Under the pieces are notes generated by a model. It worked only from the letters and a program-made list of their open reading frames with translations, did not search any database and was not told where the DNA came from. Positions 6,480-22,199 of a DNA stretch of 35,002 bases are shown piece after piece. The position numbers and the translations under genes were made by a program. This stretch comes from a virus. The stretch covers positions 1-35,002 of the IMG/VR virus record IMGVR_UViG_3300033153_010704. One strand, written 5' to 3'. The first letter of the stretch is position 1. Each line of letters opens with the position of its first letter.

Positions 6480-6591
6480 CGATTGACGATTGATCCGCCG
6501 AAGGCGGAACGATTGACGATTGGCCTGCAGGCGAAGCGCCCCCGGCCGTTGGTGCCAATCGTCAATCGAAAATCGTAAATCGTAAATCATA
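6480..6591. repeat. Composite inverted repeat, 7-mer GATTGAC type
   Basis: The left arm (6481-6523) is tandem GATTGAC units interrupted by a small palindrome (ATCCGCCGAAGGCGGAA). The loop contains CCGGCCGTT (6542-6550). The right arm (6555-6590) is made of the complementary units CAATCGT/AAATCGT. Transcribed in either direction the arms could form a long stem. It fills the gap between the hub gene and the glycine-rich tail gene. Confidence 0.8.
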
Positions 6592-8578
6592 CAACGCCCG
6601 CCTTCCTGTCGGTGTCCAGGGTGAGGACCGTGTTGTAGGTCTCGGGCGTCAGGTTGCGCTCGATGGCGATCACGCGGGGGTACTGCGCGGCGGGCCCCAC
6701 GTTCGTGCCGAGCGCCACGTCGATGCCCTCGATCCGCTCGATCCGGTCGCCGAGCGAGATCTCCGCGTCGGCCCACTCGATCGGGACCGACGCCTCGATG
6801 TACCGCCCGGCGTTGGCGTCGGCGATCAGGCCGGCGGCCCTGGTCAGGTCCGCCTCGGCGGCGCTTGCGGTCTCGTCGGCTGCCAGGCCGAGGCCCGAGA
6901 AGCGGCTGGACGAAGCGACCGTCCGCTCCTCGGACAGGTCGCCCCGATCGAAAAACCCGGTCATGTCGAACACCGACCCGCCGGGGCGCGTGACGGACGC
7001 CGAGACCGCCCTCTCGGGCGAGGCGACGGTGCAGGTCAGGCGCATCTTCACCGTCGACGGCGCGTCGACCAGGCGCTTGAACAGGCACCACGACTTCCAG
7101 TCCGTCGCTTTGTCCGCCCTGACGATCTCGGCCAGGTTGGCGGCCGTGAGCCGAACGGCCAGGCGGTCGCGGGCGGGCGTCACGCCGGTCACATGCTGCC
7201 AGGTGGTCCCCGAATCGAACGAAATCTCGACATAGAGCCCAAAGGCCTTGCCGTCGTTGAAGGCCGCGGAGGGCTGCGAGAGGCAGTCCAGGGGCCGAAA
7301 CGCCATCAGGGGCCAACTGTCGATCGTCTGGCCGCACAGGAGTGCCACGTCGGGCACGGCGGCCTCGTACGGCGCGGCGGAGAACCGGCCGTCCGTGTTG
7401 GCGTCCCACAGCCGCCCGACGTCGGCGTACAGGTGGAAGCTCGAGCCGCCGACGACGTATCGCCGGCAGTACGCCTCGGAGGCCATCTGCGGCGCCTTGG
7501 CCTTGTGGACGATCTGGCTGCCGGCGGGGACCTCGAGGCGGGCCGGGTCCCAGGCCGGCTGCAGGGGGATGGTGATCTCGTAGAGCTTGCGGCCGCCGAC
7601 GACCACCGGCGCGTTGACGCAGGACGAGACGTTTTCGGCGATCGACGTACTGAACAGGTCCGTCTCGTCGAGGTCGAGCACCGGCCGCGCGCCGTCGGCG
7701 GCCGGGGCCTGGTGCTTCACCGTCCGCAGCGTGCCGGCGCCGCGCCTGACGATCGCGATCCGGCTGGCGACCGTATGCCACTCCCGCGCGCCGAGCGAAA
7801 AGGCCTCGAAGACGTCGACCCCCGCCCGCGCGCCGAGTTCGCCCAGTGCCTCCCAGAGGCTGAGGCCCTCGCAGTCGACCACGAGGGGCACGCCGGCGGC
7901 GTAGTCGTCCTCGGTCGGCTCGGCGTTGGCGATGTACGTCTGCGAGGCGTTGTATCGCCACTGGAGGTAATCGAGGGCCGTCGCGAACGTCCAGAACTCG
8001 GCGTCGGCGGCGCCGGCGTCGGTGAACAGCGGAATGCCCCGCGCCGGCCCGGCCTCGTTGGCGCCGACGGCCTGCCTGGCCGTCGAGCAGTTGGGCCTGC
8101 CGCCGGCGTTGAAGGCGCACGGCAGGCCCGAGAACAGGGCCGTCGACGCCCCCGCCACGGCCCCCCGCGTGGCCCGCCACTGGCCGTAGACGAGGTGGCC
8201 GCGATCGCGGAGCAGCCGCCAGGCGTTGGCCCGCGCGGTGAACACGGCCTCCTCGCCCGTGCCGAACTCCCAGTCGGCGTCGACGACGAAACCCGAGAAC
8301 AGGGCCATGCGGTCGGCGCGGCGCGGCGGCGCGGTCACCAGCGCGACGCGGTCGTCGAATCCGACCAGCCGCCGCCAGTCCCATGCCCTGATCGCCACGC
8401 CGGCGGCGTCTCGCACAGGGGCCGCGTCGATCTTCAGGGCCGAGACCTCCGGCGCGATGGCGTGGCGGACCTGCGAGGCCGCCAGCCACGGCACGTGGCG
8501 GGCGGGCCCGTACCCCACGCCCACCCGCTGGCGGCGGGTCAGCCTGGTTGCCACGGCAGTTCTCGTGTGCTCAGACAT
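6587..8578 (-). CDS. Putative tail hub/tip protein
   Basis: This 663-residue protein starts MSEHTRTAVATRLTRRQRVG. It is rich in beta-strands with many tryptophans, and has stretches typical of tail-hub proteins that handle local geometry (IRAWDWRRLVGFDDRVALV, FSGFVVDADWEFGTGEEAVF). The C-terminus ends LTPETYNTVLTLDTDRKAGV, a type of ending seen in phage tip proteins. It follows the tape measure and one small gene, where the distal tail and hub proteins of siphophages lie. No catalytic motif was seen. The start at 8578 was chosen because upstream sequence is repeat. The exact hub family is inferred from size and position. Confidence 0.55.
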   Translation of the reverse strand: MSEHTRTAVATRLTRRQRVGVGYGPARHVPWLAASQVRHAIAPEVSALKIDAAPVRDAAGVAIRAWDWRRLVGFDDRVALVTAPPRRADRMALFSGFVVDADWEFGTGEEAVFTARANAWRLLRDRGHLVYGQWRATRGAVAGASTALFSGLPCAFNAGGRPNCSTARQAVGANEAGPARGIPLFTDAGAADAEFWTFATALDYLQWRYNASQTYIANAEPTEDDYAAGVPLVVDCEGLSLWEALGELGARAGVDVFEAFSLGAREWHTVASRIAIVRRGAGTLRTVKHQAPAADGARPVLDLDETDLFSTSIAENVSSCVNAPVVVGGRKLYEITIPLQPAWDPARLEVPAGSQIVHKAKAPQMASEAYCRRYVVGGSSFHLYADVGRLWDANTDGRFSAAPYEAAVPDVALLCGQTIDSWPLMAFRPLDCLSQPSAAFNDGKAFGLYVEISFDSGTTWQHVTGVTPARDRLAVRLTAANLAEIVRADKATDWKSWCLFKRLVDAPSTVKMRLTCTVASPERAVSASVTRPGGSVFDMTGFFDRGDLSEERTVASSSRFSGLGLAADETASAAEADLTRAAGLIADANAGRYIEASVPIEWADAEISLGDRIERIEGIDVALGTNVGPAAQYPRVIAIERNLTPETYNTVLTLDTDRKAGVV

Positions 8579-8579
8579 T

Positions 8580-8612
8580 CGATTGCGGATCTCGGATTTC
8601 GGATTTCGGATT
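8580..8612. repeat. Single-arm 7-mer repeat, GGATTTC type
   Basis: Four or five consecutive GGATTKC/GGATCTC units lie between the hub gene and the 129-residue gene upstream of it. No complementary arm is present nearby. The 3' end of the array supplies the stop codon of the 129-residue gene. Confidence 0.75.
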
Positions 8613-9000
8613 ATACATACGGCCCTCCGGTGCGCTCGGTGGCCTCGACGGTGTACCTCTGCCAGATCGCGCCGCCCGAGGCGGCGACCTCGCGCCTGCC
8701 GGGGACGAACCGCTCGAGCACCAGCGCCGTGCCGGTGTTGCCCTGGTCGTCGACCCACGCCGAGGGCGTGCGCTCGCTGCACAGGGCCTCGATGGCCTGC
8801 CGCAGGGTCAGCATCTCCGCGTTGGAGGCGGCCTTCAGGATGCCGGTGATCCGAACCGGGCACGGCCCGGTCGCCGTGGGGATCCCCACGCCGCCGATCG
8901 TGCCGGTGGTGACCAAAACCTTCTCGTGCGTCCGCGGCGAGCCCCAGGCCCACCGGTGCCCGCCCGACCCGAAAATGTCATTCCCGCCGACGCTGCTCAT
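8611..9000 (-). CDS. Minor tail protein, 129 aa
   Basis: The protein starts MSSVGGNDIFGSGGHRWAWG at an ATG preceded by GAGG. It is a compact beta-rich protein with VLVTTGTIGGVGIPTATG, VRITGILKAASNAEMLTLR and LVLERFVPGRREV. Its place between the tape measure and the tail hub is where siphophages keep distal-tail or minor tail proteins, although it is shorter than a typical Dit protein. The assignment rests on position. The last residues (TERTGGPYV) end at the repeat array. Confidence 0.55.
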   Translation of the reverse strand: MSSVGGNDIFGSGGHRWAWGSPRTHEKVLVTTGTIGGVGIPTATGPCPVRITGILKAASNAEMLTLRQAIEALCSERTPSAWVDDQGNTGTALVLERFVPGRREVAASGGAIWQRYTVEATERTGGPYV

Positions 9001-9020
9001 GGCGTCACCTCGTGACGCCT

Positions 9021-9154
9021 ATTGCGGATTTCGGATTTCGGATTGCGGAATACTCCATTGCGGATTGCGGATTGCGGATTGCGGATTCCGCGCGCCGCGC
9101 AGAGCGTTTCTGTCTGTGCCAATTCCGCAATCCGCAATCCGCATTCCGCAATTG
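9021..9154. repeat. Composite inverted repeat, 7-mer GGATTGC type
   Basis: The left arm (9021-9088) holds about nine GGATTGC/GGATTTC units. The central segment is GC-rich (CCGCGCGCCGCGC). The right arm (9120-9154) has four complementary GCAATCC-type units. The gap holds no other gene. It separates the tape measure gene from the 129-residue minor tail gene. Confidence 0.85.
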
Positions 9155-9157
9155 CCA

Positions 9158-10753
9158 TCATTCCATCCCCGTCCTTCTCCGCCGCCCGGCGGGGTCCTTT
9201 TTGTTGTAGTTGTTGTACTGCACGCCGTGGTTGTTGATGACGGTCTGGCCCCACCGGGCCCGGGCCGCCACGTCGCCGGAGTGCGTGCCGTAGTACGTGT
9301 AGCCGTAGAGCTTGCTGAACGGATCGGACCTGTCCCAGTCCTCGGCGGCCTCGCGGATAGATTCCGGGACGTCCGGATCGGCCGCGATGGCCCGCATCTG
9401 CCGCCTGATCTCCTCGGCCACCAGGTGGCGGACGACCGTCTCTTTGCTGTAGACGTCCTCCCAGATGCCGGGGATGTCCTCGCCCCGGGCCCGCATCCGC
9501 GTGTACGTGGCCTCGGCCCGTTCCTGCATGGTGTGCAGCGCGGCCCGCCTGCGCGATTCGGCCTGCCTGGTCGCCTGGCCGGCGATCCGGGCCCGGTATG
9601 CCTCGGCCTCGGGCGTGCCGGTGACCTCGGCGTAGCGGCCGGCGATCGCCCCCTCCCACGTCGCGGCCGAACCGGTGGCGGCCAGGCCGGCCATGCGGGC
9701 CTGTACGGCCTTGTCGAATGCTGCTGCGTACGTCTGGGCCAACTCGGGTGGGATGCCGAGTTCCTCGGCCGCCTTCGCCCCGCCGGGCAGGCCGCCGGCG
9801 GCCTTGGCGGCGGCGATGATGTCGCTCTGAAGGACCATCCTCTCGACGGCCGACATCTCCGCCGCGTCGCGCCCCATCTTCTCGGCCTCGGCCGTCATGC
9901 GATCGCTGGACGTGCCCGCCGCGCGGATCATCTGCTCGAGGGCCGTCCGGAGTCGGCCGGGCTCCTTGATGCGAAAGCTCATCGCCGCCGCCATCGACAT
10001 GAACTGCGCTTCGGTCATCCCGGCCGAGACGGCCGCGGGAAGGAGCGTCCCTGCGACGTCGGCCAGTTGCTCCAGGCTCACGCTGGACTGTTTGGCGTAG
10101 GTCGATGCGCGGGCGAAGAACGCGCGGAACTGCGCGGGCGTCGAGGCAATGCCCGCCTCCGTCGCCGCGATCGTCAGGCCCGACAGCGCCCGGCCCGACG
10201 CCCCGGTCACTCGCATCGTCTGGAACGCCGCGGTCTCGATCGCCTCAAGGCCCGCCCGCCCGCCGACGGCGGCCGGGTCGAGGCCCGACTCGATGGCGAA
10301 CGCGGCGTCGCGGGCGTCCTCCGGCCGGATGGTGTGCCTGCGGGCCTGCTCGAGCATCCACCGGACGGTCTCGGCCTCTCCCGCCCCGCGGATCTGCGCG
10401 AGCTGCTGCGTCTGGGGCTGCATCGACAGGTCGACGAACTGGCGATAGTACTGCCGCAGCTCGCGATTCAGTTCCTTGACGGTTGCCAGCGCGTTCCTCA
10501 CGACCGAGACCACCGCCATGACCGCCCCGACTGCGCCCATCTGCCACGAGCGGAACAGGGACGTATTGACGCCGACGGCGCTGCCGAGCTGGTCGAGGGC
10601 CTGGCGGCTGTCGTCGGCGCCCTTCTTGACGTCGCGCCCCGCCTTGCGGCCGGAGGCCGCAACGCGGCCCTCGGCCTGAGCCACGCCCTTCAGGTCGCTC
10701 GCGGCCCGCTTCGCGCCGGGCGCGCTGACTTGGATTTTGACTTCATCCGGCAT
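9158..10753 (-). CDS. Tape measure protein
   Basis: This 531-residue protein starts at ATG 10753 (MPDEVKIQVSAPGAKRAASD). Features are alanine-rich long helices, a hydrophobic segment near residues 70-90 (MGAVGAVMAVVSVVRNALA), and repeated helical blocks such as LEQLADVAGTLLPAAVSAG. It follows the tail-tube gene and precedes tail-tip genes, the usual place of a tape measure, which sets tail length and spans the tail lumen. The length is modest and predicts a short tail, roughly 80 nm at about 1.5 angstrom per residue. The C-terminus is basic (KKDPAGRRRRTGME). No peptidoglycan hydrolase motif was seen. Confidence 0.75.
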   Translation of the reverse strand: MPDEVKIQVSAPGAKRAASDLKGVAQAEGRVAASGRKAGRDVKKGADDSRQALDQLGSAVGVNTSLFRSWQMGAVGAVMAVVSVVRNALATVKELNRELRQYYRQFVDLSMQPQTQQLAQIRGAGEAETVRWMLEQARRHTIRPEDARDAAFAIESGLDPAAVGGRAGLEAIETAAFQTMRVTGASGRALSGLTIAATEAGIASTPAQFRAFFARASTYAKQSSVSLEQLADVAGTLLPAAVSAGMTEAQFMSMAAAMSFRIKEPGRLRTALEQMIRAAGTSSDRMTAEAEKMGRDAAEMSAVERMVLQSDIIAAAKAAGGLPGGAKAAEELGIPPELAQTYAAAFDKAVQARMAGLAATGSAATWEGAIAGRYAEVTGTPEAEAYRARIAGQATRQAESRRRAALHTMQERAEATYTRMRARGEDIPGIWEDVYSKETVVRHLVAEEIRRQMRAIAADPDVPESIREAAEDWDRSDPFSKLYGYTYYGTHSGDVAARARWGQTVINNHGVQYNNYNKKDPAGRRRRTGME

Positions 10754-10758
10754 TCGTC

Positions 10759-10851
10759 GATTTCCAATTTGCAATTTCCAATTTTCAATTTGCAGTCGAC
10801 GGCGAATCCGGGCCGTTCAATTGCCAATTGGAAATCGGAAATCGGCAATTC
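10759..10851. repeat. Composite inverted repeat, 7-mer TTTCCAA type
   Basis: The left arm (10759-10793) is tandem TTTCCAA/TTTGCAA units. The loop has GGGCCGTTCAA (10810-10820). The right arm (10818-10851) has complementary TTGGAAA/TCGGAAA units. It fills the whole gap between tape measure and tail tube, where tail-assembly chaperone genes would normally lie. Confidence 0.85.
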
Positions 10852-10853
10852 TT

Positions 10854-11285
10854 CTACGCGTCCTCCGCGTCGACGATCATCAGTGCGACGGTGTCGGCGT
10901 CGCCCCACTCGGCGTCGCCGGTCAGGGAGAAGGCCGGCACGTTCCCGCCGGCGTCCCTGGCCTTGGCATTAGCGGCCACCCCGCCGGTGAACTGGACGTT
11001 CTTGAACGTCCGCTTCTTGAGGGTCCCGCCGGCGCCCTTGTAGCCGCAGACCAGGTTCGCCGCCGCCGCGCCGATCAGGCCGAGCAGGACCATGTCGTCC
11101 TGGCTGTAGACCGTCACGCCCAGCCGGTACTGCGTGATGACCTTCTCGACCTCGCCGGGTGCGGCCGCGTCGCCGGGGTCCGTGCTGGCCACGGGCACCA
11201 GCGAGTAGCCCCAGTGCGTGGCGCCTTCCACGTCGACGCTGTTGAACTCCACTCGCGTCGCGGCATGAATCACTTCCTTTGCCAT
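10854..11285 (-). CDS. Tail tube (major tail) protein
   Basis: This 143-residue protein starts MAKEVIHAATRVEFNSVDVE with AAAGGA upstream. Short alternating strands (VITQYRLGVTVYSQDDMVL, LKKRTFKNVQFTGGVAAN) and a C-terminus mentioning small residues (DADTVALMIVDAEDA) suit the beta-barrel fold of siphophage tail-tube subunits. Size is at the low end for the family. Position between the tail terminator and the tape measure is the strongest argument. The exact subfamily is not identified. Confidence 0.6.
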   Translation of the reverse strand: MAKEVIHAATRVEFNSVDVEGATHWGYSLVPVASTDPGDAAAPGEVEKVITQYRLGVTVYSQDDMVLLGLIGAAAANLVCGYKGAGGTLKKRTFKNVQFTGGVAANAKARDAGGNVPAFSLTGDAEWGDADTVALMIVDAEDA

Positions 11286-11341
11286 CTTTCAACGTCCTTT
11301 CCACGGCCCGTTGTTGGGCCGTTAATCGCCTGTCAAAGACC

Positions 11342-11446
11342 CGGAGGAACCGCAGATTCCGCAGATTCCTCAGATTGAATTCGGAGTTCATTCCGGCCGT
11401 TTCTTGTTCTCATCTGCGCCATCTGCGTAATCTGCGGTTACCTCTT
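11342..11446. repeat. Composite inverted repeat, 9-mer CCGCAGATT type
   Basis: The left arm (11342-11375) is GGAGGAA followed by three 9-mers of the CCGCAGATT type. The loop contains CCGGCCGTTT (11393-11402). The right arm (11411-11446) has the complementary ATCTGCGNN units ending in GGTTACCTC. Pairing extends beyond the 9-mers into the flanking GAGGAACC/GGTTACCTC. Confidence 0.85.
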
Positions 11447-11458
11447 GTCCGTTCTCCG

Positions 11459-11893
11459 TTACGTTCGTTTCAGCGGGCCGTCGAACGAGACCCGCAGCGA
11501 GCCGACAGCGCCGACGGGCAGAAGCCGGTTGTTCTTGCCCGCCACGGCCCAGTACCGCCAGCGGTAACGGTCGACCGAGCAGTGATTGCCGCCGCCGGCG
11601 TCCCACGCCTCGATGGCGGCGTCGACCTCGGCGATCACCTCGCTGACGGTCTCGAACCGGTCGGCCTTGCCGTCGCCGCAGACGGCCAGCGGCAGGAACA
11701 CGTCCATCTCCCACGACCGCTCGCCCGCGGACCCGCCGGTGCGGTACACCTCGGACGGCAGGACCCCCAGTACGAGCGTCTCGTTCGGCAGGACGTCGCG
11801 TTCGACGACCTGCCGGAGGGTCTCCGCCGCGACGAGCGCATCCAGCGCCGGCTTGAGCGAGTCCAGGATCGTGTTGACGATGTATGTTGCCAT
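11459..11893 (-). CDS. Tail terminator-like protein
   Basis: This 144-residue protein starts MATYIVNTILDSLKPALDAL. An N-terminal amphipathic helix is followed by alternating strands (LVLGVLPSEVYRTGGSAGER, MDVFLPLAVCGDGKADRFE) and a second helix (VSEVIAEVDAAIEAWDAGGG). This alpha-beta arrangement with a long helix, together with the place between the gp10-like closure protein and the tail tube, fits the tail terminator/minor tail U fold that caps the tail. The similarity is structural guesswork from the sequence pattern. Confidence 0.6.
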   Translation of the reverse strand: MATYIVNTILDSLKPALDALVAAETLRQVVERDVLPNETLVLGVLPSEVYRTGGSAGERSWEMDVFLPLAVCGDGKADRFETVSEVIAEVDAAIEAWDAGGGNHCSVDRYRWRYWAVAGKNNRLLPVGAVGSLRVSFDGPLKRT

Positions 11894-11895
11894 TT

Positions 11896-11952
11896 TCGAT
11901 TTACGATTTTCGATTGTCGATTACGGACTACTGACTACTGATTACCGACTAC
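11896..11952. repeat. Single-arm 7-mer repeat changing unit along its length
   Basis: Upstream of the tail terminator start the array begins as CGATTTA/CGATTTT units and turns into ACTACTG/ATTACCG units, keeping the 7-base step. It lies between the tail terminator and the gp10-like gene. The change of unit without loss of period is notable. Confidence 0.7.
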
Positions 11953-12539
11953 CATTCGTTTGCGTATTCGTCCATCCTGTCCTCGAACGCGTCGGCCATG
12001 ATCTGGGCGGCGGCGCGGGCCCCTTCGCTGAGCCAGTTCGAGGCGGGGATCGTCACCTGCGCCAGCAGGACCCAGTGCGCGATCATCGTGCCCCGCTTGC
12101 GGACCTCGGCCAGAAGGGGCGGCTTGCCCTTGCGTTTGATGAACGTCAGGTTCTCCATGTCGCGCGGCGAGCTGTACTGCCTGGCCTTGTCCGTCAGCGG
12201 GACCGACAGGGCCCCGCCGGGCTTCGCGCGAATGACCCCGCCGTGCTCGTGGATGGCGGCGTACGGATGTCCCGGCGTGCCGCGCCGCACGCCCAGCGCC
12301 GCCAGCGGCGCCGAGCGGTCGATCATCCAGCCGGACACCGACGAGCCCAGGCCGGCCCCCTGGTATTGGGAGCGGATGTCCAGCTCGCCCATGTTGAGTT
12401 GCCGGGCGACGTCCTCGGCCCCGGCCCGTGCCGCCGAGTGGACCCCGTCGGCCATCGCGTCGGGCGCCCGGCCCGCCAGGGCCCGGTGCCTCGCGATCGT
12501 CCGCCGCGTCTCGGGCGAGATGTCAATCGTTACAACCAT
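11949..12539 (-). CDS. HK97 gp10-like / virion morphogenesis head-tail closure protein
   Basis: This 196-residue protein starts MVVTIDISPETRRTIARHRA at 12539; further upstream the frame only translates repeat sequence. HPYAAIHEHGGVIRAKPGG (about residues 92-110) is the most recognisable element and resembles the YAAxxEfGt signature of HK97-gp10-like and Mu gpG-type proteins, which join head to tail or complete the tail. Long helices at both ends (RAPDAMADGVHSAARAG, then ARAAAQIMADAFEDRMDE) fit the same family. Gene order supports it. Confidence 0.7.
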   Translation of the reverse strand: MVVTIDISPETRRTIARHRALAGRAPDAMADGVHSAARAGAEDVARQLNMGELDIRSQYQGAGLGSSVSGWMIDRSAPLAALGVRRGTPGHPYAAIHEHGGVIRAKPGGALSVPLTDKARQYSSPRDMENLTFIKRKGKPPLLAEVRKRGTMIAHWVLLAQVTIPASNWLSEGARAAAQIMADAFEDRMDEYANEW

Positions 12540-12580
12540 TTCCGATTTCCAATTTCCGATTTCCAATTTCCGATTTACGG
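12540..12580. repeat. Single-arm 7-mer repeat, TTTCCGA/TTTCCAA type
   Basis: Five to six alternating TTTCCGA and TTTCCAA units fill the junction between the gp10-like gene and the 109-residue gene. No complementary arm is present. Two small perfect stems follow within the neighbouring gene (CCTGCC/GGCAGG at 12597-12613 and GTCAGCC/GGCTGAC at 12624-12640). Confidence 0.75.
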
Positions 12581-12904
12581 AGCCGGACTGGCCGCACCTG
12601 CCGAACGGGCAGGCAGGGATTCCGTCAGCCTTCGGCTGACAGATTCGTCTTGAGGAACAAGCGGGGGCGCCGGCGGCTCGTTGATAACGGCAACGCCCTT
12701 GCCCGCGATGCGCCTCAGGTTCAGCACGAGGACCCGGCCGTGGCTCGGCTCCCGGCCGGCGTCGCAGTCGGCCTTGAACCGTGTCGCGGCGGCCAGAGGC
12801 GACTCGAAACGCTGCGGGTTCTCGGCATACTGCCCCATCAGGTCGTTCAGGGCGACGATCAGCTCCTCGTCCGTCCAGGTTGTCGCGTCCGCCTGCTCTG
12901 CCAT
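12575..12904 (-). CDS. Hypothetical head-tail region protein, 109 aa
   Basis: The start at 12904 has GGAG upstream and reads MAEQADATTWTDEELIVALN. Residues 1-85 look like a small soluble helical protein (DLMGQYAENPQRFESPL, RVLVLNLRRIAGKGVAV). The last 25 or so residues (SVSRRLTESLPARSAGAASP) are low-complexity and coincide with small palindromes and the repeat array, so the C-terminus may have been extended by repeat insertion. It lies between the gp6-like connector and the gp10-like closure gene. Function unknown. Confidence 0.55.
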   Translation of the reverse strand: MAEQADATTWTDEELIVALNDLMGQYAENPQRFESPLAAATRFKADCDAGREPSHGRVLVLNLRRIAGKGVAVINEPPAPPLVPQDESVSRRLTESLPARSAGAASPAP

Positions 12905-12913
12905 GTCCGTATC

Positions 12914-12942
12914 TCCAATCCGTGTAATTCGTGTAATCCGTG
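12914..12942. repeat. Single-arm 9-mer repeat, TCCGTGTAA type
   Basis: Three 9-base units (TCCGTGTAA, TTCGTGTAA, TCCGTGGAC) lie between the connector gene and the 109-residue gene. The period matches the CCGCAGATT elements elsewhere but the unit differs. Confidence 0.6.
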
Positions 12943-12957
12943 GACAACCTCTTTCCG

Positions 12958-13575
12958 TCACACCGCCTTTCGCCGGAACGTCTGGCAGACGGCCTTGACG
13001 TCGGGCAGGAGTTTGTAGGCGCCGGCCCACTGCACGCCGCCGCCCTGGCCGGCGTCGATGCCGGTGGCGCCCATGTCGTCGCGGCGCTGGGCGAGGTACT
13101 GGCACTGCTGGATCGCGGCGTCGACCAGGTCGTCCGGCAGGGCGGTCTCGCCCTCGCCGACGTCGTCGCCGGCGGACGTGTAGCCGCCGATATAGATCAC
13201 CTGGACGGTCCGGGGCCCGTGCAGCCATGCCCCGCCGATCCGGTGGAGGGTCCCGCGGTCGAGGTCGGCGTGGTAGCTCGTCCCCTCGACCAGGGCGTCG
13301 GAGTCGGTGAAATCGCCGTACAGGCCTTCCTTGACCGACGTGATCGACACGACGGGAAAGGCCCGCAGCATCAGCATGGCCTGGTCGTGGTCGACGGCCG
13401 AGAGGACCTCGGTCAGCGACGCCTTTTCGAGGCACGGCGCGCCGGTCCGCGTGGCGCGGCCGCACGCCCGGGCGATCCGCGCCGAGACGCCGGTGATGAT
13501 CGCCGTCAGCAGCGCGTCGTCGTCGTCGACCGCCACGCCCATCCGGGCCTTCAGTTGTGCCAATGTGCAGAGCAT
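12958..13575 (-). CDS. Head-tail connector, gp6-like
   Basis: This 205-residue protein starts MLCTLAQLKARMGVAVDDDD at 13575, with GAGGAG nine bases upstream. The opening (LaqlKarmgv...DDaLLtaiI) is the classic start of phage gp6-like head-tail connectors, which form the adaptor ring under the portal. Middle strands (FPVVSITSVKEGLYGDF, RTVQVIYIGGYTSAGDD) and a C-terminal helix (LVDAAIQQCQYLAQRRDD) fit the phiE125 gp8/HK97 gp6 pattern. An in-frame extension upstream to 13653 translates only repeat and is rejected. Confidence 0.75.
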   Translation of the reverse strand: MLCTLAQLKARMGVAVDDDDALLTAIITGVSARIARACGRATRTGAPCLEKASLTEVLSAVDHDQAMLMLRAFPVVSITSVKEGLYGDFTDSDALVEGTSYHADLDRGTLHRIGGAWLHGPRTVQVIYIGGYTSAGDDVGEGETALPDDLVDAAIQQCQYLAQRRDDMGATGIDAGQGGGVQWAGAYKLLPDVKAVCQTFRRKAV

Positions 13576-13590
13576 GTCGCTGCGCTCCTC

Positions 13591-13668
13591 GGATTGACGA
13601 TTTACGATTGACGATTGACGATTAGCGCCCGGTCCGGGCAGTTCAATCGACAATCGACAATCGACAAT
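13591..13668. repeat. Composite inverted repeat, 7-mer GATTGAC type
   Basis: The left arm (13591-13624) is GATTGAC/GATTTAC units. The loop is GCGCCCGGTCCGGGCAGTTC. The right arm (13643-13668) is three TCGACAA units. It has nearly the same loop as the element at 15316-15395, showing that these are copies of one element. Confidence 0.9.
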
Positions 13669-13672
13669 GCCG

Positions 13673-13861: not shown

Positions 13862-13881
13862 TTTCGTTCTCCTGTGTCAGA

Positions 13882-14050
13882 GTTAACCGCAGATTCCGCA
13901 GATTCCGCTGATTTCAAACGGCCCGTCACGGACCCGTACAGCCGCGAACGAACAGCGTGGCCATAACGGCGATCACGCCGATCACCACATACCACCACGG
14001 AATCATCTTGCCGTTCCTTTCTGCGCAATCTGCGTAATCTGCGGTTACTC
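13882..14050. repeat. Inverted pair of 9-mer arrays flanking a micro-gene
   Basis: The left arm (13882-13914) is GTTAACCGCAGATT continued by CCGCAGATT and CCGCTGATT. The right arm (14020-14050) has CTGCGCAAT, CTGCGTAAT and CTGCGGTTA. The arms enclose about 105 bases that contain a 26-codon membrane-peptide frame, so this copy carries a small gene in its loop. Confidence 0.75.
13926..14006 (-). CDS. Putative 26-residue single-pass membrane peptide
   Basis: The start at 14006 has AAGGAA about nine bases upstream. The peptide is MIPWWYVVIGVIAVMATLFV plus a six-residue tail (RGCTGP), one continuous transmembrane segment with a short basic/cysteine end. It sits entirely inside the loop of a 9-mer inverted pair. 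A membrane mini-protein amid head genes is unexpected; it might be a small holin-like or accessory peptide, or chance coding. The longer reading of this frame to 14117 translates repeat and is not preferred. Confidence 0.4.
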   Translation of the reverse strand: MIPWWYVVIGVIAVMATLFVRGCTGP

Positions 14051-14083
14051 TGTTTCCGTTCGTTCTTCGTTCAGGGCCGCGGG

Positions 14084-14118
14084 CGTGGCCCCGGAGGGGG
14101 CAAGGCCCCGGGGCCACG
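14084..14118. other. Perfect 11-bp GC-rich hairpin
   Basis: CGTGGCCCCGG (14084-14094) and CCGGGGCCACG (14108-14118) form a perfect stem with a 13-base loop just downstream of the 90-residue gene. No T-run follows on the minus strand, so it is not a standard intrinsic terminator. It could pause or stabilise the late transcript. Confidence 0.5.
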
Positions 14119-14133
14119 GGGGCCGGCCGGCGA

Positions 14134-15296: not shown

Positions 15297-15315
15297 GATG
15301 CGTCCTTTCGTTTGG

Positions 15316-15395
15316 TGATTTACGATTTACGATTTACGATTGTCGATTAGCGCCCGGGCGGGCCGTTCAATCGACAATCGTCAATCGACATTCGG
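15316..15395. repeat. Composite inverted repeat, 7-mer GATTTAC type
   Basis: The left arm (15316-15349) is four GATTTAC-type units. The loop has GCGCCCGGGCGGGCCGTTC. The right arm (15366-15395) is TCGACAA/TCGTCAA units. It separates the capsid gene from the decoration-like gene and is a sister copy of the element at 13591-13668. Confidence 0.9.
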
Positions 15396-15403
15396 CATTT
15401 CCT

Positions 15404-16729
15404 TTACGACGCGGCGGTCTTGGCCACGACGATCGCGTCGACGTCCGCCTCGGCCATGTCCACGTGCATGATCCCGCGGATGGCGGCCTGGTCGCTGACG
15501 AAAAACGCGTGGTCGCTCCTGTCGATCGTCACGTCCCGGAGCATGCCGACGATGTGGCTGATGCCGAGGTCGCCGAACCAGGCGTACTTCGTGCCGGCCG
15601 AGACGCTGCCGACGGCGATCATCCGGTTGCCGTAGGTGAACGGGTAGCCGTCGATGTTGGCCGGCATCTGCCCGTTGGCCCGCTCGAACACGGGTATGTC
15701 GTTGGCGTTGCGGAGCGAGCGGAGCGCCATGAGCACGCTGAGCGACAGGCCCCACCGCGGCCCGCGGAATCCGTAGTCGACCGTCATTCCGGCGATGACG
15801 TTGGAGATGTCCTCCGGGTCGAGCGTTGCTATGGTCGTGTTGCCCGACGCGGCCGCCACCGACGAGATGTTGGCCGACTCCATGATGCCGGTGATGGAGC
15901 CGTAGGCGGCCGTCCCGTCGCCGTTGATCAGGGCGTCGTCCAGGGCGTAGGACATCGCGTAGACCATCTCCAGGGCGATGAAGTTCCCCAGGTCGATCAG
16001 CAGGGCCGACCGCGCGAACTCGTTGGGGATCACCGTCAGCGCCATCAGCTTCTGGGGGGTCAACTGGATCAGGTCGAACGTCGGGGTCGACGTGGTGCCC
16101 TGGGCGGCGGGGGCCGTCCAGTAGGCCGTCAGGCCGCCCGTTCGCTTGGGGATGCTCGTCACGCCGCCCGTTACCAGCGGCAGGCGCCGGGCCAGCGGGA
16201 AGAAGACGCCGGTGGCCTCGACGTTGCGGATCAGTTCGGAGCGGAACTCGTCGGGAATCACGTAGCCGCCGGACGCGTCGACGTCGGGGTCCATGTCCTT
16301 GACGACCTCCTGGGCCATGTCCGCAACGTAGGCGGGGCACCGGTCGGCCTTGCCGTTGAGGCTGAATCCCACGAACGCCATGTACGCCCCGAACCGCTTG
16401 GCGGTCTCGTCGTCCACGAACGCCCGCTGGTCCTCGAGCATCTGCCGCCTGGCCCGCAGGCCGCCGGGGACGACGATCTTCCCGGCGCTCACGCCGAGGC
16501 CAGATCTCTGGATCCGGCGGACGGCCTCCTGCTCGGCGGCCAGGTCGTTCTTGAGCTGCTCGATCTCGGCCACGCGCTCGTCGATCTCGCCCAGGGCCCT
16601 GCCCTCGGGCGACTCGAAGAAGGTAGTAGTGTCCTTGAGCGTTTTCGCCAGCTTCTCGTCGTCGCGCTGGTCGACCGGAACGGTCAGCAGCGCGCAGATC
16701 GCGGCGAACATCTTCATGAGTTTTTCCAT
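15404..16729 (-). CDS. HK97-type major capsid protein
   Basis: This 441-residue protein starts MEKLMKMFAAICALLTVPVD. Residues about 20-85 are a charged coiled coil (RALGEIDERVAEIEQLKNDL), the scaffold-like delta domain. The HK97 fold proper follows: GGYVIPDEFRSELIRNVEAT (N-arm/E-loop side), LTPQKLMALTVIPNEFARSA (the conserved strand and helix in PF05065 capsids), LDDALINGDGTAAYGSITGI, and a C-terminal part ending DHAFFVSDQAAIRGIMHVDM. The length fits the family. The protease encoded directly upstream would remove the delta domain. Confidence 0.9.
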   Translation of the reverse strand: MEKLMKMFAAICALLTVPVDQRDDEKLAKTLKDTTTFFESPEGRALGEIDERVAEIEQLKNDLAAEQEAVRRIQRSGLGVSAGKIVVPGGLRARRQMLEDQRAFVDDETAKRFGAYMAFVGFSLNGKADRCPAYVADMAQEVVKDMDPDVDASGGYVIPDEFRSELIRNVEATGVFFPLARRLPLVTGGVTSIPKRTGGLTAYWTAPAAQGTTSTPTFDLIQLTPQKLMALTVIPNEFARSALLIDLGNFIALEMVYAMSYALDDALINGDGTAAYGSITGIMESANISSVAAASGNTTIATLDPEDISNVIAGMTVDYGFRGPRWGLSLSVLMALRSLRNANDIPVFERANGQMPANIDGYPFTYGNRMIAVGSVSAGTKYAWFGDLGISHIVGMLRDVTIDRSDHAFFVSDQAAIRGIMHVDMAEADVDAIVVAKTAAS

Positions 16730-16759
16730 AATGTCTCGACTCCCGTCTTTCTTTTCGTT

Positions 16760-17539
16760 TTACCTGGTTGTGTCGGCGCACGCGGCCAGCAGTCCGTCCG
16801 CCGCCCGCGCCACTTCGCCCGGCTCGGCCTCGCCGGCGCCGTCAACGTCGTCTGACCCGTCCCCGGCCGGGGCGTTTTCTCTTTTTGCCGGGGGGGTCCG
16901 TTCGTTGACGGTCTCGCCGGTGAAGGCGCAAATCGTCTCTTCAATGTCCGCCAGCCGCTCGTCGAGGCCGGCGGCGAACTCGGCGAGGATCTTGCCGAGC
17001 TGCTCGACTACGGCCTTGGTGATGTCCTCGGCCTCGCCCGCGCGGCCCGGCCGGGGGGCGAACGCCGCCAGCTTGGCCAACGCGTCCTGGTTGCAGCCGA
17101 CGGCCACGGCGGAGACCTCGTACAGTTCCTGCGCCGTGTGGTGGTATCGCTTGCGGCCGCCCACGGTGCGGTTCTCGCCGGCCCTGGGCATGAAGCCCAC
17201 CGACACCGCACGCATGTGGCCGTCCCGATAGAGCGTCCGATACTCGCGGCCGAGTTCCGTGTCGGCGAACGCGACCTTGCCGACCAGCTCGCCGTCGACG
17301 ACGCCGATCTCCTTGAACGACCCGATCACCGGCGAGCGGCCGTCCGACAGGCGGTGCATGTGCGCGGCCATGAACACCGGGTTTTTGTTGAAGTTCTCGA
17401 GGTCCCAGCCGTCCTGCTCGATCACTTCATCCGAGCGGTCCACGACGGCCGTGCTGCAGACGAACTCCACGTCGTAGCCGGCGTTCTCGTCGCCCACGGC
17501 CTTGATGCGCCCGATTACGTACTTCGGTGTGACGTTCAT
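16760..17539 (-). CDS. HK97-type prohead protease
   Basis: This 259-residue protein starts at ATG 17539 (MNVTPKYVIGRIKAVGDENA) with GGAGA upstream. Catalytic candidates typical of PF04586 are visible: His60 (or His62) in NPVFMAAHMHR and Ser113 in MRAVSVGFMP, in the usual spacing. The domain occupies about residues 5-165, then a helical, acidic C-terminal extension (DITKAVVEQLGKILAEFAAG, DDVDGAGEAEPGEVARAADG). It would cleave the capsid delta domain during prohead maturation. It lies between the portal-MuF fusion and the capsid gene, the standard order. Confidence 0.88.
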   Translation of the reverse strand: MNVTPKYVIGRIKAVGDENAGYDVEFVCSTAVVDRSDEVIEQDGWDLENFNKNPVFMAAHMHRLSDGRSPVIGSFKEIGVVDGELVGKVAFADTELGREYRTLYRDGHMRAVSVGFMPRAGENRTVGGRKRYHHTAQELYEVSAVAVGCNQDALAKLAAFAPRPGRAGEAEDITKAVVEQLGKILAEFAAGLDERLADIEETICAFTGETVNERTPPAKRENAPAGDGSDDVDGAGEAEPGEVARAADGLLAACADTTR

Positions 17540-17556
17540 TTTCGTTCTCCCGAGCC

Positions 17557-17660
17557 GGAGGAACCGCAGATTGCGCAGATTTCGCAGATGGGTTTCCGGA
17601 TCTCCGTTCTGTCCGTTTGTTTCTTCATCATCTGCGCCATCTGCGTAATCTGCGGTTACT
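17557..17660. repeat. Composite inverted repeat, 9-mer CCGCAGATT type
   Basis: The left arm (17557-17590) is GGAGGAACCGCAGATT, then GCGCAGATT and TCGCAGATG. The right arm (17627-17660) has ATCTGCGCC, ATCTGCGTA and ATCTGCGGTTAC. The loop includes GTCCGTTTG. It fills the gap between the protease and the portal-MuF genes. Confidence 0.85.
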
Positions 17661-20367
17661 CCGATTCTCCGCCTTCGGCGGATTTCCGTGCGTCGCTCAT
17701 GTTCGCGTAGGTCTCGAATCCGCCGGCGGCCAGGCGGCCGGCCAGCTTGGCCAGCGCCTCGCCCGCGGCCTTGGGCGTTTTGGCCCGGCTGGCGATCGAG
17801 ATGCACTGGCAGTTGATCGTGTTGCCCGGCGAGCCGTTTCTGTGGTCGCGCGGGTACATCAGCGATTCGCCGTCGACGATGAACGGCTCGGCGATCGCAA
17901 TGGCCTTGCCGGGCCCGTAGACGCCCTCGGCCCGCACGTGGCCGGCGCGTCGCTCGCCGGGGCCGCGCGAGTGCAGCCACGCCTTGTGCGTCATCCCCGC
18001 GGCCTTCTGGGCGACGTGGCGCGAATCGCTCAGGGCCTGGCCCACGGCGTTGCGGGCCACGACCATCGCCGCCTTGCGGCGGTTGCCCATGACGGCCTGG
18101 ATACGGTCGGCCAGGAGCCGGACGTCCTCGCCCGCGTTCAGGCCGTCTGCCAGTTGGCCGCGGAGCAGTTTTCGGGTAAAGGCGTCGATCTTCGTCGAGA
18201 CGATGATGCTCTCGTGCCGGATCGCGGCCGCGATCGCGGGGTCGGACATGATCCGCTTGAGGGCCTCGGCCAGGGCGTCGCCCTCGAGGCCGGCCTCGAC
18301 CAGCGCCTGGCGGACGCCCAGCTCGTTTGCGTCCGTCATGAACGCCCGCATGCGGCTCTTGAAGCCCGGGTCGTTCGGGAACGCGTGCAGCAGCACGCGG
18401 CGGATGACGTCTGCGTCTTTGACAACGGAATCCGGAGGAACCGCAGATTGCGCAGATTCGGACGATTTCTGTCCGGCCTTCTCTGTGAAATCTGCGGAAT
18501 CTGCGGTTCCTCTTGTTCCGTTCTTTCCGAGCGCTTCGCGGAGTGCGGTCAGGGCGAGGGACTGCTGTTTCAGGTACCGGGCGCGGAGGAAGCCGCGCAG
18601 CCGTTTGGCCAGCGGGGACCACGACGCGGCCCAGCGCCGCCAGGCCGCTTCCGCCGTTTTTCGATCGACGGCGGCATGGATTGACGAATGACGATTGACG
18701 ATTGACGATTGGCTCGCGGGGCCGTTATGTGCGTGATCGCGCCCCGAACCAGCGGGGCGGTGTGCGCCTTCTGCCTCCGGCGAATCGTCAATCGTCAATC
18801 GTAATTCGTCAATCTCTTCCTCTTCCTCTTCCTGGCCGAGCCGGTCGGCGTCGTCGCCGCCGCCTTCGGGGGCGTCGTCGATCCCCGCCATTCCCGCCGC
18901 GACCTCGCGCGCGGGTGCGAGGCTCATGGGCAAAAAGCCTTCGTCGCCCCAGTCGGTCGGGCCCATGCCGAGGTCGAGGGCCTCGTCGATCCTGTTGATC
19001 GGCCAGCCCATCGCAAAGAACGTCTTGGCCGCGTCCGTCCGGGCCAGGCGCATCTTCTGGACGACGGGCTGGTCCTCGAGGTCCCACACGACGATAAGCG
19101 TCGGGTCGATCCGGCTGACGATCTCCTGGACGCCGGGCAGCAGGGCGTCCGTCGTGGGGAAAATGGTCTGTTCGTAGAACTGGGCCAGGGCGTGCTGGGC
19201 GTAGGCCGAGGAGTCCCCGGCCGACTCCACCCAGCCCGCGACGACCGGCGGCACGCCGTACAGCGCCGCGATCTCCAGGCGCGTGGTGCTTTTTGTCAGG
19301 TGGTGCTCCATGTCGCGGAGCGTCGCGCCGGTGGGGGCGACCGTGCCGCCGCCCTCCATGACGATGGGCTTTCTGGCCTTGCCCGCGCCCTGGTACCTTC
19401 GTCGCAGGGCCAGCTCGAACTCCTCGCGCTGATCGGGCGTCAGGCCGCCGGGGAACGTGAAGGCCGTGCCGATCTCGCAGCCGTTGGCAAGGGCCGAGGC
19501 GTTGAAGAGCGAGGCGTTGTAGTCGGTGGCCAGGGCCAGCCGGCCGGGGACCGACGGCGAGAGGCCCGCCAGGGGATCGTCGTCGTCGGACCACAGGTGC
19601 CAGTACTTGACCTCGTCGGGGGCGAGGGCCTTCCTCCGCCCGGTCCCCGGCGGGCGATACCAGTAGCCTTTGAGCAGCGGCAGGCCGTCGCCGTCGCGGT
19701 CGACCACGGGCGCAACGCGGCTGCGGCCGACGACGTGGATCTCCGCGGGCTTCCGGCCGGCCATCCGGCCGAGGACCCACGCGACGGACCCGCCGGCCAG
19801 CCTGTGGGCGACCGTCGAGCGGATGTTGTGCTCCATCCCGTCACTGTAGTTGTTGGGCCGGCCCAGGAGCTGCCAGGCCTCGCCCGACTCGACGTATTCC
19901 CCCTCGGCCGCCCGGCCGACCACCACGCCGCGGGCGCCCTTGACGAGGCGCAGCGTGCTGCGGGGATTCGCCGTCAGATACCCCCGCCTGACGGGTCGGA
20001 AGTCGGCGCGAAACCCCTTGGTGAGTTTCAGGCCGGTCCCGGACTCGGCGCGGACCAGCCGCAGCGGGATCCCCGCCGTCGTGTCGGCCACGGTGTTGAT
20101 GCAGCGGTTGGCCCAGAGGACGCGCTTGTGCGGATTGAGCGGGACGTTGAGCGCACCCGTCTCGCCGACGTCGGAGCCGGAGAGGAACCGCCGCGCCACC
20201 TCGCTCAGCGGCACGTCTTTTTGCTCGAGGCCCACGCCGCTTGTGACGCTCGTCACGGCGGAGCGAGACGTAGCCGGGTCGGAGCCCGGCGAAGACGCAC
20301 CGGCCATCGTGGCCAGCGCCGCCGCCGCGCCGTCGCGTTGGTTGTTGTTGACTCGTCTCGTCGGCAT
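17656..20367 (-). CDS. Portal protein fused to MuF-type head morphogenesis protein
   Basis: One uninterrupted frame of 903 residues starts MPTRRVNNNQRDGAAAALAT at 20367. Residues about 60-490 are an HK97-type portal (ANRCINTVADTTAGIPLRLV, WQLLGRPNNYSDGMEHNIRS, LEIAALYGVPPVVAGWVESA), forming the dodecameric DNA gate. A Glu-rich tract and two translated repeat elements (about residues 517-563 and 617-645) make the linker. From about 650 a MuF-like domain follows, with the hallmark end RRAGHVRAEG, FIVDGESLMYPRDHRNGSPG and NTINCQC near residue 855. In Mu and most phages these are two genes (gp29/gp30). A natural fusion, or two genes joined by repeat insertion, are both possible. Confidence 0.85.
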   Translation of the reverse strand: MPTRRVNNNQRDGAAAALATMAGASSPGSDPATSRSAVTSVTSGVGLEQKDVPLSEVARRFLSGSDVGETGALNVPLNPHKRVLWANRCINTVADTTAGIPLRLVRAESGTGLKLTKGFRADFRPVRRGYLTANPRSTLRLVKGARGVVVGRAAEGEYVESGEAWQLLGRPNNYSDGMEHNIRSTVAHRLAGGSVAWVLGRMAGRKPAEIHVVGRSRVAPVVDRDGDGLPLLKGYWYRPPGTGRRKALAPDEVKYWHLWSDDDDPLAGLSPSVPGRLALATDYNASLFNASALANGCEIGTAFTFPGGLTPDQREEFELALRRRYQGAGKARKPIVMEGGGTVAPTGATLRDMEHHLTKSTTRLEIAALYGVPPVVAGWVESAGDSSAYAQHALAQFYEQTIFPTTDALLPGVQEIVSRIDPTLIVVWDLEDQPVVQKMRLARTDAAKTFFAMGWPINRIDEALDLGMGPTDWGDEGFLPMSLAPAREVAAGMAGIDDAPEGGGDDADRLGQEEEEEEIDELRLTIDDSPEAEGAHRPAGSGRDHAHNGPASQSSIVNRHSSIHAAVDRKTAEAAWRRWAASWSPLAKRLRGFLRARYLKQQSLALTALREALGKNGTRGTADSADFTEKAGQKSSESAQSAVPPDSVVKDADVIRRVLLHAFPNDPGFKSRMRAFMTDANELGVRQALVEAGLEGDALAEALKRIMSDPAIAAAIRHESIIVSTKIDAFTRKLLRGQLADGLNAGEDVRLLADRIQAVMGNRRKAAMVVARNAVGQALSDSRHVAQKAAGMTHKAWLHSRGPGERRAGHVRAEGVYGPGKAIAIAEPFIVDGESLMYPRDHRNGSPGNTINCQCISIASRAKTPKAAGEALAKLAGRLAAGGFETYANMSDARKSAEGGESE
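18432..18514. repeat. 9-mer inverted repeat inside the portal-MuF frame
   Basis: The left arm (18432-18458) is GGAGGAACCGCAGATT plus GCGCAGATT. The loop has GTCCGGCCTT. The right arm (18487-18514) has ATCTGCGGA, ATCTGCGGTT and CCTC. It is translated in frame as a Ser/Ala/Asp-rich linker (GTADSADFTEKAGQKS and SESAQSAVPP). Confidence 0.85.
18678..18814. repeat. 7-mer inverted repeat inside the portal-MuF frame
   Basis: The left arm (18678-18712) has five GATTGAC/GAATGAC units. The loop of about 70 bases begins with GGGGCCGTTA. The right arm (18781-18814) has GTCAATC/GTAATTC units. It is translated in frame as part of the linker (DELRLTIDDSPEAEG and SQSSIVNRHSSI). Confidence 0.85.
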
Positions 20368-20387
20368 CCTTGCCTCGTAACTCCGGA

Positions 20388-20618
20388 TCAAAGACCCGGA
20401 GGAACCGCAGATTTCGCAGATTCGGAAGATTGGTTCGGGGAGGCGCTCGTGTCCCGGTGCCTCAGCGCGTTGCCATGGACGATGAAGTCGAGCGTCTCGC
20501 CGTCCCGGTCTGACGGATGGACGTAGAACGTCACGCCGAAGCCTTGGACCTCGCAACGCAACGTGTGGTCGAACCCGTCGTCCGCGGCGGCCGCTCTTAG
20601 GTACTCTTCAAAGGTCAT
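20388..20618 (-). CDS. Small hypothetical protein, 76 aa
   Basis: The start at 20618 has GGAG upstream and reads MTFEEYLRAAAADDGFDHTL. The core (EVQGFGVTFYVHPSDRDGET, LDFIVHGNALRHRD) looks like a small alpha-beta fold. The C-terminus (SPNQSSESAKSAVPPGL) is translated from the left 9-mer repeat arm. The gene sits between terminase and portal, where some phages keep a small accessory gene, and is framed by the two halves of a 9-mer inverted pair, as if it were cargo. Function unknown. Confidence 0.55.
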   Translation of the reverse strand: MTFEEYLRAAAADDGFDHTLRCEVQGFGVTFYVHPSDRDGETLDFIVHGNALRHRDTSASPNQSSESAKSAVPPGL

Positions 20619-20690
20619 CGTTTGCTCCGTTCTGCCCGTTGCCGTGCCAGAATCATCCGAATCTGCGTCATCTGCGGTTCCTCTTGGTTG
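20395..20690. repeat. Inverted pair of 9-mer arrays flanking the 76-residue gene
   Basis: The left arm (20395-20435) is CCGGAGGAACCGCAGATT, then TCGCAGATT and CGGAAGATT. The right arm (20648-20690) has ATCATCCGA, ATCTGCGTC, ATCTGCGGTT and CCTC. The arms are about 215 bases apart with a complete small gene between them. The outer GAGGAACC/GGTTCCTC ends are perfectly complementary. Confidence 0.75.
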
Positions 20691-20693
20691 TTA

Positions 20694-22199
20694 CTATTCG
20701 GGCACCCACATTCGTGCCTGGGCGGCCCGGTTCTTCGCCGCCATGCGGGCCAGGCAGAACGCGTAAAACACGTCGCAGTGGCTTTCCGGGCACAGCGGGT
20801 TGGCCGTCTCGACGAGCCTTAGCCTATCGCCGCCGCGGTCGGCCTGGACGGCGTAGATGTCCGTGCCGATCCACTTGGTCGCGCCCTCGAGGGGCGGGAT
20901 GACCTGGTCGGCGTCGTCGAACGCCGTGCGGGCCAGCGAGCCCATCTCGGCCTTGGACGCAGCGGTGAAGGTCACAGGCTGCCACCGCTCGCCGAACGTG
21001 GCGGCCAGCGTCTCGTTGGTGTCCATGCCCAGGCCGGTCGCGTCGCCGGCCCCGACGTTTCCGGGATTGGCCCGCATGGCCGACATGACGACCTCGCGCT
21101 GCAGCGCGAAGGTGCAGTCGCGCATGACGGCCAGGTAGCTGATCTCCCGCGCGGCCGCTCCGACGCGGTTGACCCAGACGACGGCCAGGTCGCTGTGGCG
21201 GGCCACGTCGTAGCCGATCTCGTGCCGCGCCGGATCTGCCGCCATCGCGTCGAAGAACGTCGGGTCCCAGCCGCCGTCGCCGGCGATCTCCAGGACCTCG
21301 AGGCCGCTCGCCGTGGCGGCGGCCATGAGTTTGGCCCAGGTGATCAGGGCCTCGAGGTCGCCGGTGAACTCGCACATGTACTCGCGCAGCCAGCCGACGT
21401 CGTCGCCGTAGAGTTCCTTGAACGTCTCGAGGTCGGTCGGATCGCCGTTGCCGTCCTTCAGCACAAAGCCCTCGGCGACGGACTTTTCGATGGTCTGCAG
21501 GTGGACGCTGTACCGTTCGGGCGCGTTGACCAGCTCGAAGTATTTTGTGTTTCGGCCGCGCGGCGTCGAGATGACGATGATCCGATGGCCGCGGGTGATC
21601 AGCGGGAACACGACGCGCCAGTGGTCGTAGCCGCCCCTGGCGAACAGGCCGAACTCGGTGAAGATGACGCTTCCCGTCAGGCCGGCCAGCGTGTCGGGGT
21701 CGCGGCCGGGCAGTGCCGTTACCGTCCCGCCGCCGGGCAGGTGCAGCGTCCGGGCGGTGCAGCGGAACGTATGGTCGAGCTGCTTGTCGTACTCGAAGTA
21801 CTCCCGATCGGTCAGTGTGATCTCGCCCTTCCTGCGGGCGACGCGTTTGAAGATGTCGGCGATCTGGCGGCACTTGGCGAACGTCTGGTCGGCCTGGCGC
21901 TGCGTCATCGAGACGATGTACCAGTCGGCGCCGTTGGTCAGCGCGTCGTCGACGGCCTCGGCGGCCGAGACGAAGTCCTTGCCGCCCTGGCGGTGGACGC
22001 AGCCGACCTTCACGCGGGCCTTGTCGTTGAAGAACCGCTGCTGCCACGGCAGGAACGTTATGACAGAATTGCGGATTTCGGATTTCGGATTGCGGATTCC
22101 GTGCACCGTGTCGCCCGCCGTCTCTGACGACAATCCCGCATTCCGCTCGTCACGGCGGAGCATGTCGTAGCCGGGCAATCCGCAATCCGCATTCATCAT
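20694..22199 (-). CDS. Terminase large subunit (Mu gp28-like)
   Basis: This 501-residue protein starts at 22199, where ATG overlaps the upstream TGA. The first 45 residues come mostly from a translated 7-mer repeat (GIRNPKSEIRNSV); the domain proper begins ITFLPWQQRFFNDKARVKVG. The ATPase part has a Walker-A-like segment at about 69-75 (HRQGGKD) and a Walker B GSVIFTEFGLF, with Thr in place of the usual first Asp but the catalytic Glu kept. The nuclease part has acidic positions in IGYDVARHSDLAVVWV, GAGDATGLG and HCDVFYAF. It would pump phage DNA into proheads and, as in Mu, cut host-flanked DNA. It follows the gp27-like gene. Confidence 0.85.
   Translation of the reverse strand: MMNADCGLPGYDMLRRDERNAGLSSETAGDTVHGIRNPKSEIRNSVITFLPWQQRFFNDKARVKVGCVHRQGGKDFVSAAEAVDDALTNGADWYIVSMTQRQADQTFAKCRQIADIFKRVARRKGEITLTDREYFEYDKQLDHTFRCTARTLHLPGGGTVTALPGRDPDTLAGLTGSVIFTEFGLFARGGYDHWRVVFPLITRGHRIIVISTPRGRNTKYFELVNAPERYSVHLQTIEKSVAEGFVLKDGNGDPTDLETFKELYGDDVGWLREYMCEFTGDLEALITWAKLMAAATASGLEVLEIAGDGGWDPTFFDAMAADPARHEIGYDVARHSDLAVVWVNRVGAAAREISYLAVMRDCTFALQREVVMSAMRANPGNVGAGDATGLGMDTNETLAATFGERWQPVTFTAASKAEMGSLARTAFDDADQVIPPLEGATKWIGTDIYAVQADRGGDRLRLVETANPLCPESHCDVFYAFCLARMAAKNRAAQARMWVPE
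22067..22194. repeat. 7-mer inverted repeat inside the terminase start
   Basis: The left arm (22067-22100) is GCGGATT/TCGGATT units. The right side has GCAATCC/GCATTCC units in two blocks (22131-22147 and 22175-22194). It encodes the first 45 residues of the large terminase and lies between its start codon and its ATPase domain. Confidence 0.8.

Follow-up and report, generated by a model that had tools for sequence, protein, structure and literature searches.

Convergent arrays of 7- to 9-nucleotide units form dispersed hairpin elements in a Mu-like phage and in chromosomes from across many bacterial phyla

Over-represented heptamers have been noted in bacterial genomes since 2007 and have no accepted explanation. 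The STRR heptamers of cyanobacteria are patchily distributed 7-mer tandems, mostly direct repeats of a single sequence, which sit at gene junctions and frequently close to start codons. Here we describe hairpin elements in IMGVR_UViG_3300033153_010704, a complete stand-alone virus record analysed over its whole length of 35,002 bases (the window); each has two convergent arrays of 7- or 9-nucleotide units around a short loop. A first-pass annotation likened them to the cyanobacterial repeats, and the analogy is a good one, but the convergent GGGAATC pairs of Xanthomonas are a closer precedent (PMC4692102). Each Xanthomonas genome holds 70-75 such inverted pairs, for which neither mechanism nor function is established (Rehm and colleagues, PMC4692102). 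Like those repeats, and like the Nostoc GGGGA(C/T)T heptamers of the same report, the elements are degenerate 7-mer tandem arrays, dispersed and mostly intergenic, and they share with Xanthomonas the convergent pairing and the fixed order. They do not share the G-quadruplex-capable unit GGGANTN: the window units are GATTGAC, ATTGCGG, ATTTCCA and CCGCAGATT, and GATTKNC, the commonest family in this analysis, has GATT in its left arm, unlike GGGAATC. The Xanthomonas report moreover concerns one G-rich family, whereas the present elements comprise many families of 7-, 8- and 9-mers in many phyla and in phages, with in-frame insertions and shared loops.

The TAACTGA repeats of the Beggiatoaceae are also 7-mer tandems at gene junctions, frequently close to start codons and patchy across lineages, but most of them repeat one sequence in direct orientation (in BOGUAY, 169 direct sets were reported against a single inverted case; MacGregor, PMC4679880), whereas inverted pairs predominate here. 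REPINs (PMC3116915) resemble the elements in being extragenic, dispersed and non-autonomous hairpins of an inverted pair and a spacer, and they spread as a unit, as some of the present elements may do; their arms are single conserved 16-mers rather than tandem 7-9-mers, and dependence on RAYT was not seen here by counts. Rickettsia palindromic elements (PMC10969869), palindromes of ~100-150 bp tolerated in frame within proteins, have a counterpart in the in-frame insertions at the portal linker of the window, but they possess conserved long sequences, whereas the arrays described here are degenerate and mainly intergenic. With a probability of roughly 0.6, the elements are copies of a hairpin repeat that is dispersed, non-autonomous and comparable to REPINs, MITEs and Rickettsia palindromic elements, made of two convergent 7-mer (less often 8- or 9-mer) arrays around a short loop. 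REPINs and Rickettsia palindromic elements are meant as functional analogues, and membership in the REPIN or MITE families is not claimed. Most likely the hairpins hitch-hike as small DNA elements and are not a conserved RNA.

Genes for a MuA-type transposase and for a protein of MuB type mark the window as a Mu-like transposable phage. Its minus-strand late genes include a terminase, a portal fused to a head-morphogenesis domain, a head protease, a capsid and a head-tail adaptor. The GC content is 68%, and the repeats are AT-richer than the surrounding sequence. By autocorrelation there are 19 period-7 arrays (0.10 in Markov controls) and nine period-9 arrays (0 in controls), one of the latter, at 6720-6749, being ordinary coding sequence; no arrays were detected at periods 5, 8 or 10-13, and one at period 6. 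All ten loci of the first-pass annotation are present, with coordinates matching to a few bases. The two pairs of 9-mer arms that enclose small open reading frames (ORFs), and the single arrays (Table 1), had been missed, and with them the feature extends to ~27.15 kb. Folded individually, as the annotation had suggested, the twelve paired elements reached z scores of -2.4 to -12. A GGCCGTT motif had been reported in several loops, and it is indeed concentrated there: 5 of its 10 plus-strand copies lie inside 693 nt of loop, where 0.2 would be expected.

The two arms of each locus had been described as matching and co-varying. At the level of the unit family this is correct, with an own-arm match score of 252 against a mean of 139 for permuted arms and a best of 233 in 20,000 permutations (P < 5e-5). 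Unit by unit it is not. A locus-specific match was not seen within the GATTGAC family, where 14 of 24 permutations score as well, and is slight among the 9-mers (2 of 120). Mirrored unit order was sought in three ways and found in none; in 97 loci from many genomes, taken for having variable units in both arms, the score was 526 against 519 +/- 7 in shuffles. The arms therefore share a vocabulary and lack strict pairing.

The repeat class is widespread in the chromosomes of many phyla and largely undescribed. The pattern of two convergent GATT arrays matched at least 120 chromosomal stretches, against 3 IMG/VR contigs. The titles of the matched records name Planctomycetota, Acidobacteria, Chloroflexi, Bacteroidetes, Verrucomicrobia, Omnitrophota and Patescibacteria, as well as NC10/Methylomirabilota, Desulfobacterales and other Deltaproteobacteria. 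At least nine phyla or candidate phyla carry the hairpins in their chromosomes. Nearly all of these chromosomal records are metagenome-assembled, and genomes were sampled as stretches. When stretches were taken without selection, period-7 arrays were far above controls in four of five genomes, with fewer arrays at periods 8 and 9; the unit families were GATTKNC, GATTCGA, GAATTAC, TTGGAAG, GTTTCCC, CAGTNGG and GGATGATT. Lineages use their own unit vocabularies, comparable to dialects, and sister species vary from zero to hundreds of array matches. In one comparison between sister species, at two positions of L213 (5048-5118 and 13425-13506), almost every unit of either arm departs in the same way from L255/L256 (GATT versus GAAT). 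This uniform difference suggests whole-element replacement or concerted change.

The polarity of a family is nearly fixed, and its outer end often is too. Among 294 planctomycete genomes, pairs in the order GATT..AATC gave 263 matches in 29 genomes and pairs in the order AATC..GATT gave 3 matches in 2 genomes, overlapping matches being included in both counts. Arm orientations in unselected stretches were 15 '+-', 1 '++' and 0 '-+', and most other unit families likewise hold one polarity. Followed outward, 43% of GATT-family arms break off precisely where the next unit would begin with G, a position mostly taken by A. The units of one reversed planctomycete locus, G227:C25:20113-20167, belong to the Xanthomonas family GGGAATC, a hint that each family has a polarity of its own.

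In some genomes the arms and the loop appear to be copied together. At least eight loci on different contigs of genome G003 have a common TTGGAGAA-type loop and others have a GAAAAGAAA loop; one loop is common to three loci of G276; and the window loops at 13592 and 15317 are related to each other. Similar loop pairs made up 12% in G003 against 2% in shuffles (maximum 5.6%) and 0 between genomes, in a test that used the first-listed sequences and no random sample.

An origin of each element in place is the alternative that survives best, although we consider it unlikely. Slippage in steps of 7-9 nt would form an array, and template switching on a fold-back would copy the inverted arm on the spot. 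Slippage has been proposed as the cause of heptamers (Mrazek et al. 2007, as cited in PMC4679880 and PMC4692102), and 7-mers are reported to outnumber all other long simple repeat units in most bacterial genomes. Loops also tend to continue the palindrome, being more self-complementary than shuffles (mean z -0.8 to -1.3, against ~0 in controls), and in most genomes they are unrelated, with no target-site duplication detected. Fold-back of existing arrays, however, predicts both polarities, one of which is nearly absent, and neither the unmirrored order of variable units nor the phased outer ends would follow from it. The reappearance of the same families in distant phyla and the shared loops of G003 and G276 also speak against an origin in place. 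The simple template-switch correction entertained by the first-pass annotation leaves both the fixed polarity and the phased ends unexplained, though slippage and fold-back could build or reshuffle arrays.

Elements appear and disappear at gene junctions and in permissive protein linkers. Baits from the capsid, MuA and tail protein retrieved no IMG/VR relatives of the phage, and related phages were obtained from IMG/VR by terminase alignment. One of them, L171, is a 5.1-kb phage contig that is 98.4% identical to the window across the main aligned stretch, and the differences between the two concentrate at elements. L171 is without the 9-mer element of the portal gene and ~90 nt beside it, with loss of the frame, and its terminase junction holds an extra ORF of ~90 aa enclosed by arms similar to those of the window. 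A search for near-identical phage pairs with arrays gave only L171. In L171 the deletion at the portal element (around 4000) puts the portal part and the head-morphogenesis part out of frame with each other, and this may be real or an assembly error. In related phages the junction between the small and large terminase genes is empty or has arrays of ATTGCGG, GTAGCCG, the 9-mer CAGAGGTAG or the 8-mer ACGCGGAG; in L173 a different small ORF lies between the arms. The portal linker, with its two in-frame elements in the window, has none in L177, L179, L185 and L188 and carries other families in L172, L173, L189 and L191.

A comparable pattern is found in the chromosome of the acidobacterium G010, where elements occupy many junctions of a ribosomal-protein operon, between the stop codon and the next ribosome-binding site. 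The operon was recognised from encoded sequences and gene order rather than by family search. The same junctions in relatives of G010 are short gaps or contain GATTTTG, AATGACC, GAATCCAA or CACAGAGGC families, and a few of the operon elements are common to sister species. Recurrence at one operon position mainly reflects the small number of tolerant sites, because most intergenic gaps are short.

These comparisons bear on the possibility, raised by the first-pass annotation, of a structured RNA between cistrons, in which a transcribed hairpin would stabilise or insulate the mRNA and compensatory changes would keep the arms matched. The strong predicted folds and the location between a stop codon and the following ribosome-binding site are as such an RNA would have them. 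Yet the orthologous junctions of relatives are empty or filled by unrelated families, two elements lie within an ORF, and variable positions pair no better than shuffles. A position between divergent genes was seen in 7 of 32 cases against 33 of 179 gaps, neither a clear excess nor a clear lack by heuristic gene calls, and a search of Rfam matched no family. We regard a structured RNA as improbable, and this part of the annotation is not upheld.

A telomerase-like or other templated activity that extended the two 3' ends of a break by units of 7-9 nt before they were joined would predict fixed polarity, phased ends, unmirrored arms, often unrelated loops and no target duplication, but such end addition is very unlikely, since no such enzyme is known in these bacteria (none was sought), several templates per genome would be required, and the shared loops of G003 and G276 do not fit. 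Intrinsic terminators were rejected because elements lie within the ribosomal-protein operon and the portal ORF and the arm ends, by reading, lack a T run; terminator and promoter roles alike were rejected for the sites inside operons and ORFs and for the background-like gene orientation. Nor are the elements taken for an artefact of assembly, since many independent projects yielded assemblies that contain them and L171 repeats the junctions of the window.

A dispersed non-autonomous element, by comparison, fits the presence and absence of elements at orthologous sites, the exchange of families at one junction and the loops common to copies in G003 and in the window, and to this extent the first-pass proposal of one modular class, possibly a non-autonomous mobile element, holds. 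The hairpin would be copied as a unit, at least in part, by a trans-acting activity. Its spread may be mostly neutral and confined to sites that tolerate 60-130 bp, unit slippage would afterwards reshuffle the arms, and the phage probably acquired its copies from host chromosomes. Several observations weigh against this account. No transposition event was observed, and whether a site gained or lost its element was judged, for the most part, from the majority of relatives being empty. Loops appear unrelated in many other genomes, so that not every element is a whole copy, and the assignment of arms to families is based on short sequences. Although inverted arms are present, as in MITEs, target-site duplication at the elements was not above shuffles. 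A linked transposase was not identified, and some array-rich genomes have no Y1_Tnp; in G451, for example, there were 221 array matches, yet Y1_Tnp gave no hit. Y1_Tnp is present in element-rich planctomycetes, but across 61 genomes the counts of Y1_Tnp/RAYT and of arrays gave rho 0.22 (P 0.08), a comparison of counts and not of proximity to elements. Array counts follow genome size (rho 0.44).

By this analysis heptamer over-representation becomes a defined object whose properties can be tested: the arms converge, polarity is fixed and ends are phased, each lineage has a vocabulary, ribosomal operons offer both empty and occupied sites, and a phage portal protein contains insertions in frame. 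More tentatively, they may belong to a very large unnamed class of mobile or self-generating hairpins in many phyla and phages, in which an enzyme builds or copies convergent 7-9 nt arrays of fixed polarity and phased ends, with units particular to each lineage. The elements bear on phage mosaicism because junction repeats are places where small accessory genes appear exchanged, and the phage repeats at successive junctions are plausibly recombination boundaries for such genes. They also bear on genome annotation because peptides such as IRNPKSEIRN at protein N-termini derive from the repeat.

Table 1. Positions of paired elements and single arrays in the window.
Feature	Position	Remarks
7-mer element, GATTGAC family	6482-6588	loop with GGCCGTT at 6544; CCGCCGAAGGCGG hairpin near 6497
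Single 7-mer array GATTTCG	8581-8612	between stop codon and ATG at 8578 (minus-strand genes)
7-mer element, ATTGCGG/GATTTCG family	9021-9152	left arm double; fold z -8.4
7-mer element, ATTTCCA family	10758-10849	loop GGCCGTT at 10811; occupies most of one intergenic gap
9-mer element, CCGCAGATT family	11348-11439	GGCCGTT at 11395
Single array GATTTTC/GATTTAC, then second 7-mer family TACTGAC	11892-11953	abuts start codon
Single 7-mer array ATTTCCG/ATTTCCA	12538-12576	abuts start codon
Single 9-mer array AATCCGTGT	12917-12942	
7-mer element, GATTGAC family	13592-13668	loop AGCGCCCGGTCCGGGCAGTT
9-mer arms around 26-codon ORF (13926-14006, minus)	13884-14047	
7-mer element, GATTTAC/GATTGAC	15317-15399	GGCCGTT at 15361; loop similar to that of 13592-13668
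9-mer element, portal gene end	17561-17656	portal stop codon at arm edge
9-mer element, in frame within portal ORF	18435-18512	missing from 98.4%-identical L171
7-mer element, in frame within portal ORF	18679-18814	unit 2 is GAAT- in either arm
9-mer arms around small ORF (20433-20618, minus, 62+ codons)	20399-20683	between terminase and portal
7-mer element, small/large terminase junction	22067-22191	right arm translated as terminase N-terminus IRNPKSEIRNS
Single 7-mer array CGATTTA	25858-25884	early region
Single 7-mer array AAATTGG	26671-26697	early region
Two single arrays, 9-mer CAGATTGCG and 7-mer AATCCGC	27054-27145	near MuA ORF start

The small minus-strand ORFs at 13926-14006 and 20433-20618, which lie between inverted 9-mer arms, may be compared with the extra ORFs within the arms of L171 and L173. 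The start codons at 8578, 11893 and 12538 directly abut 7-mer arrays, leaving little room for a separate ribosome-binding site, and this short spacing recalls the report on TAACTGA repeats in Beggiatoaceae. Another short hairpin, with the sequence TCCGCCGAAGGCGGA on one strand or the other, adjoins arrays near 6497, 17680 and 27043.

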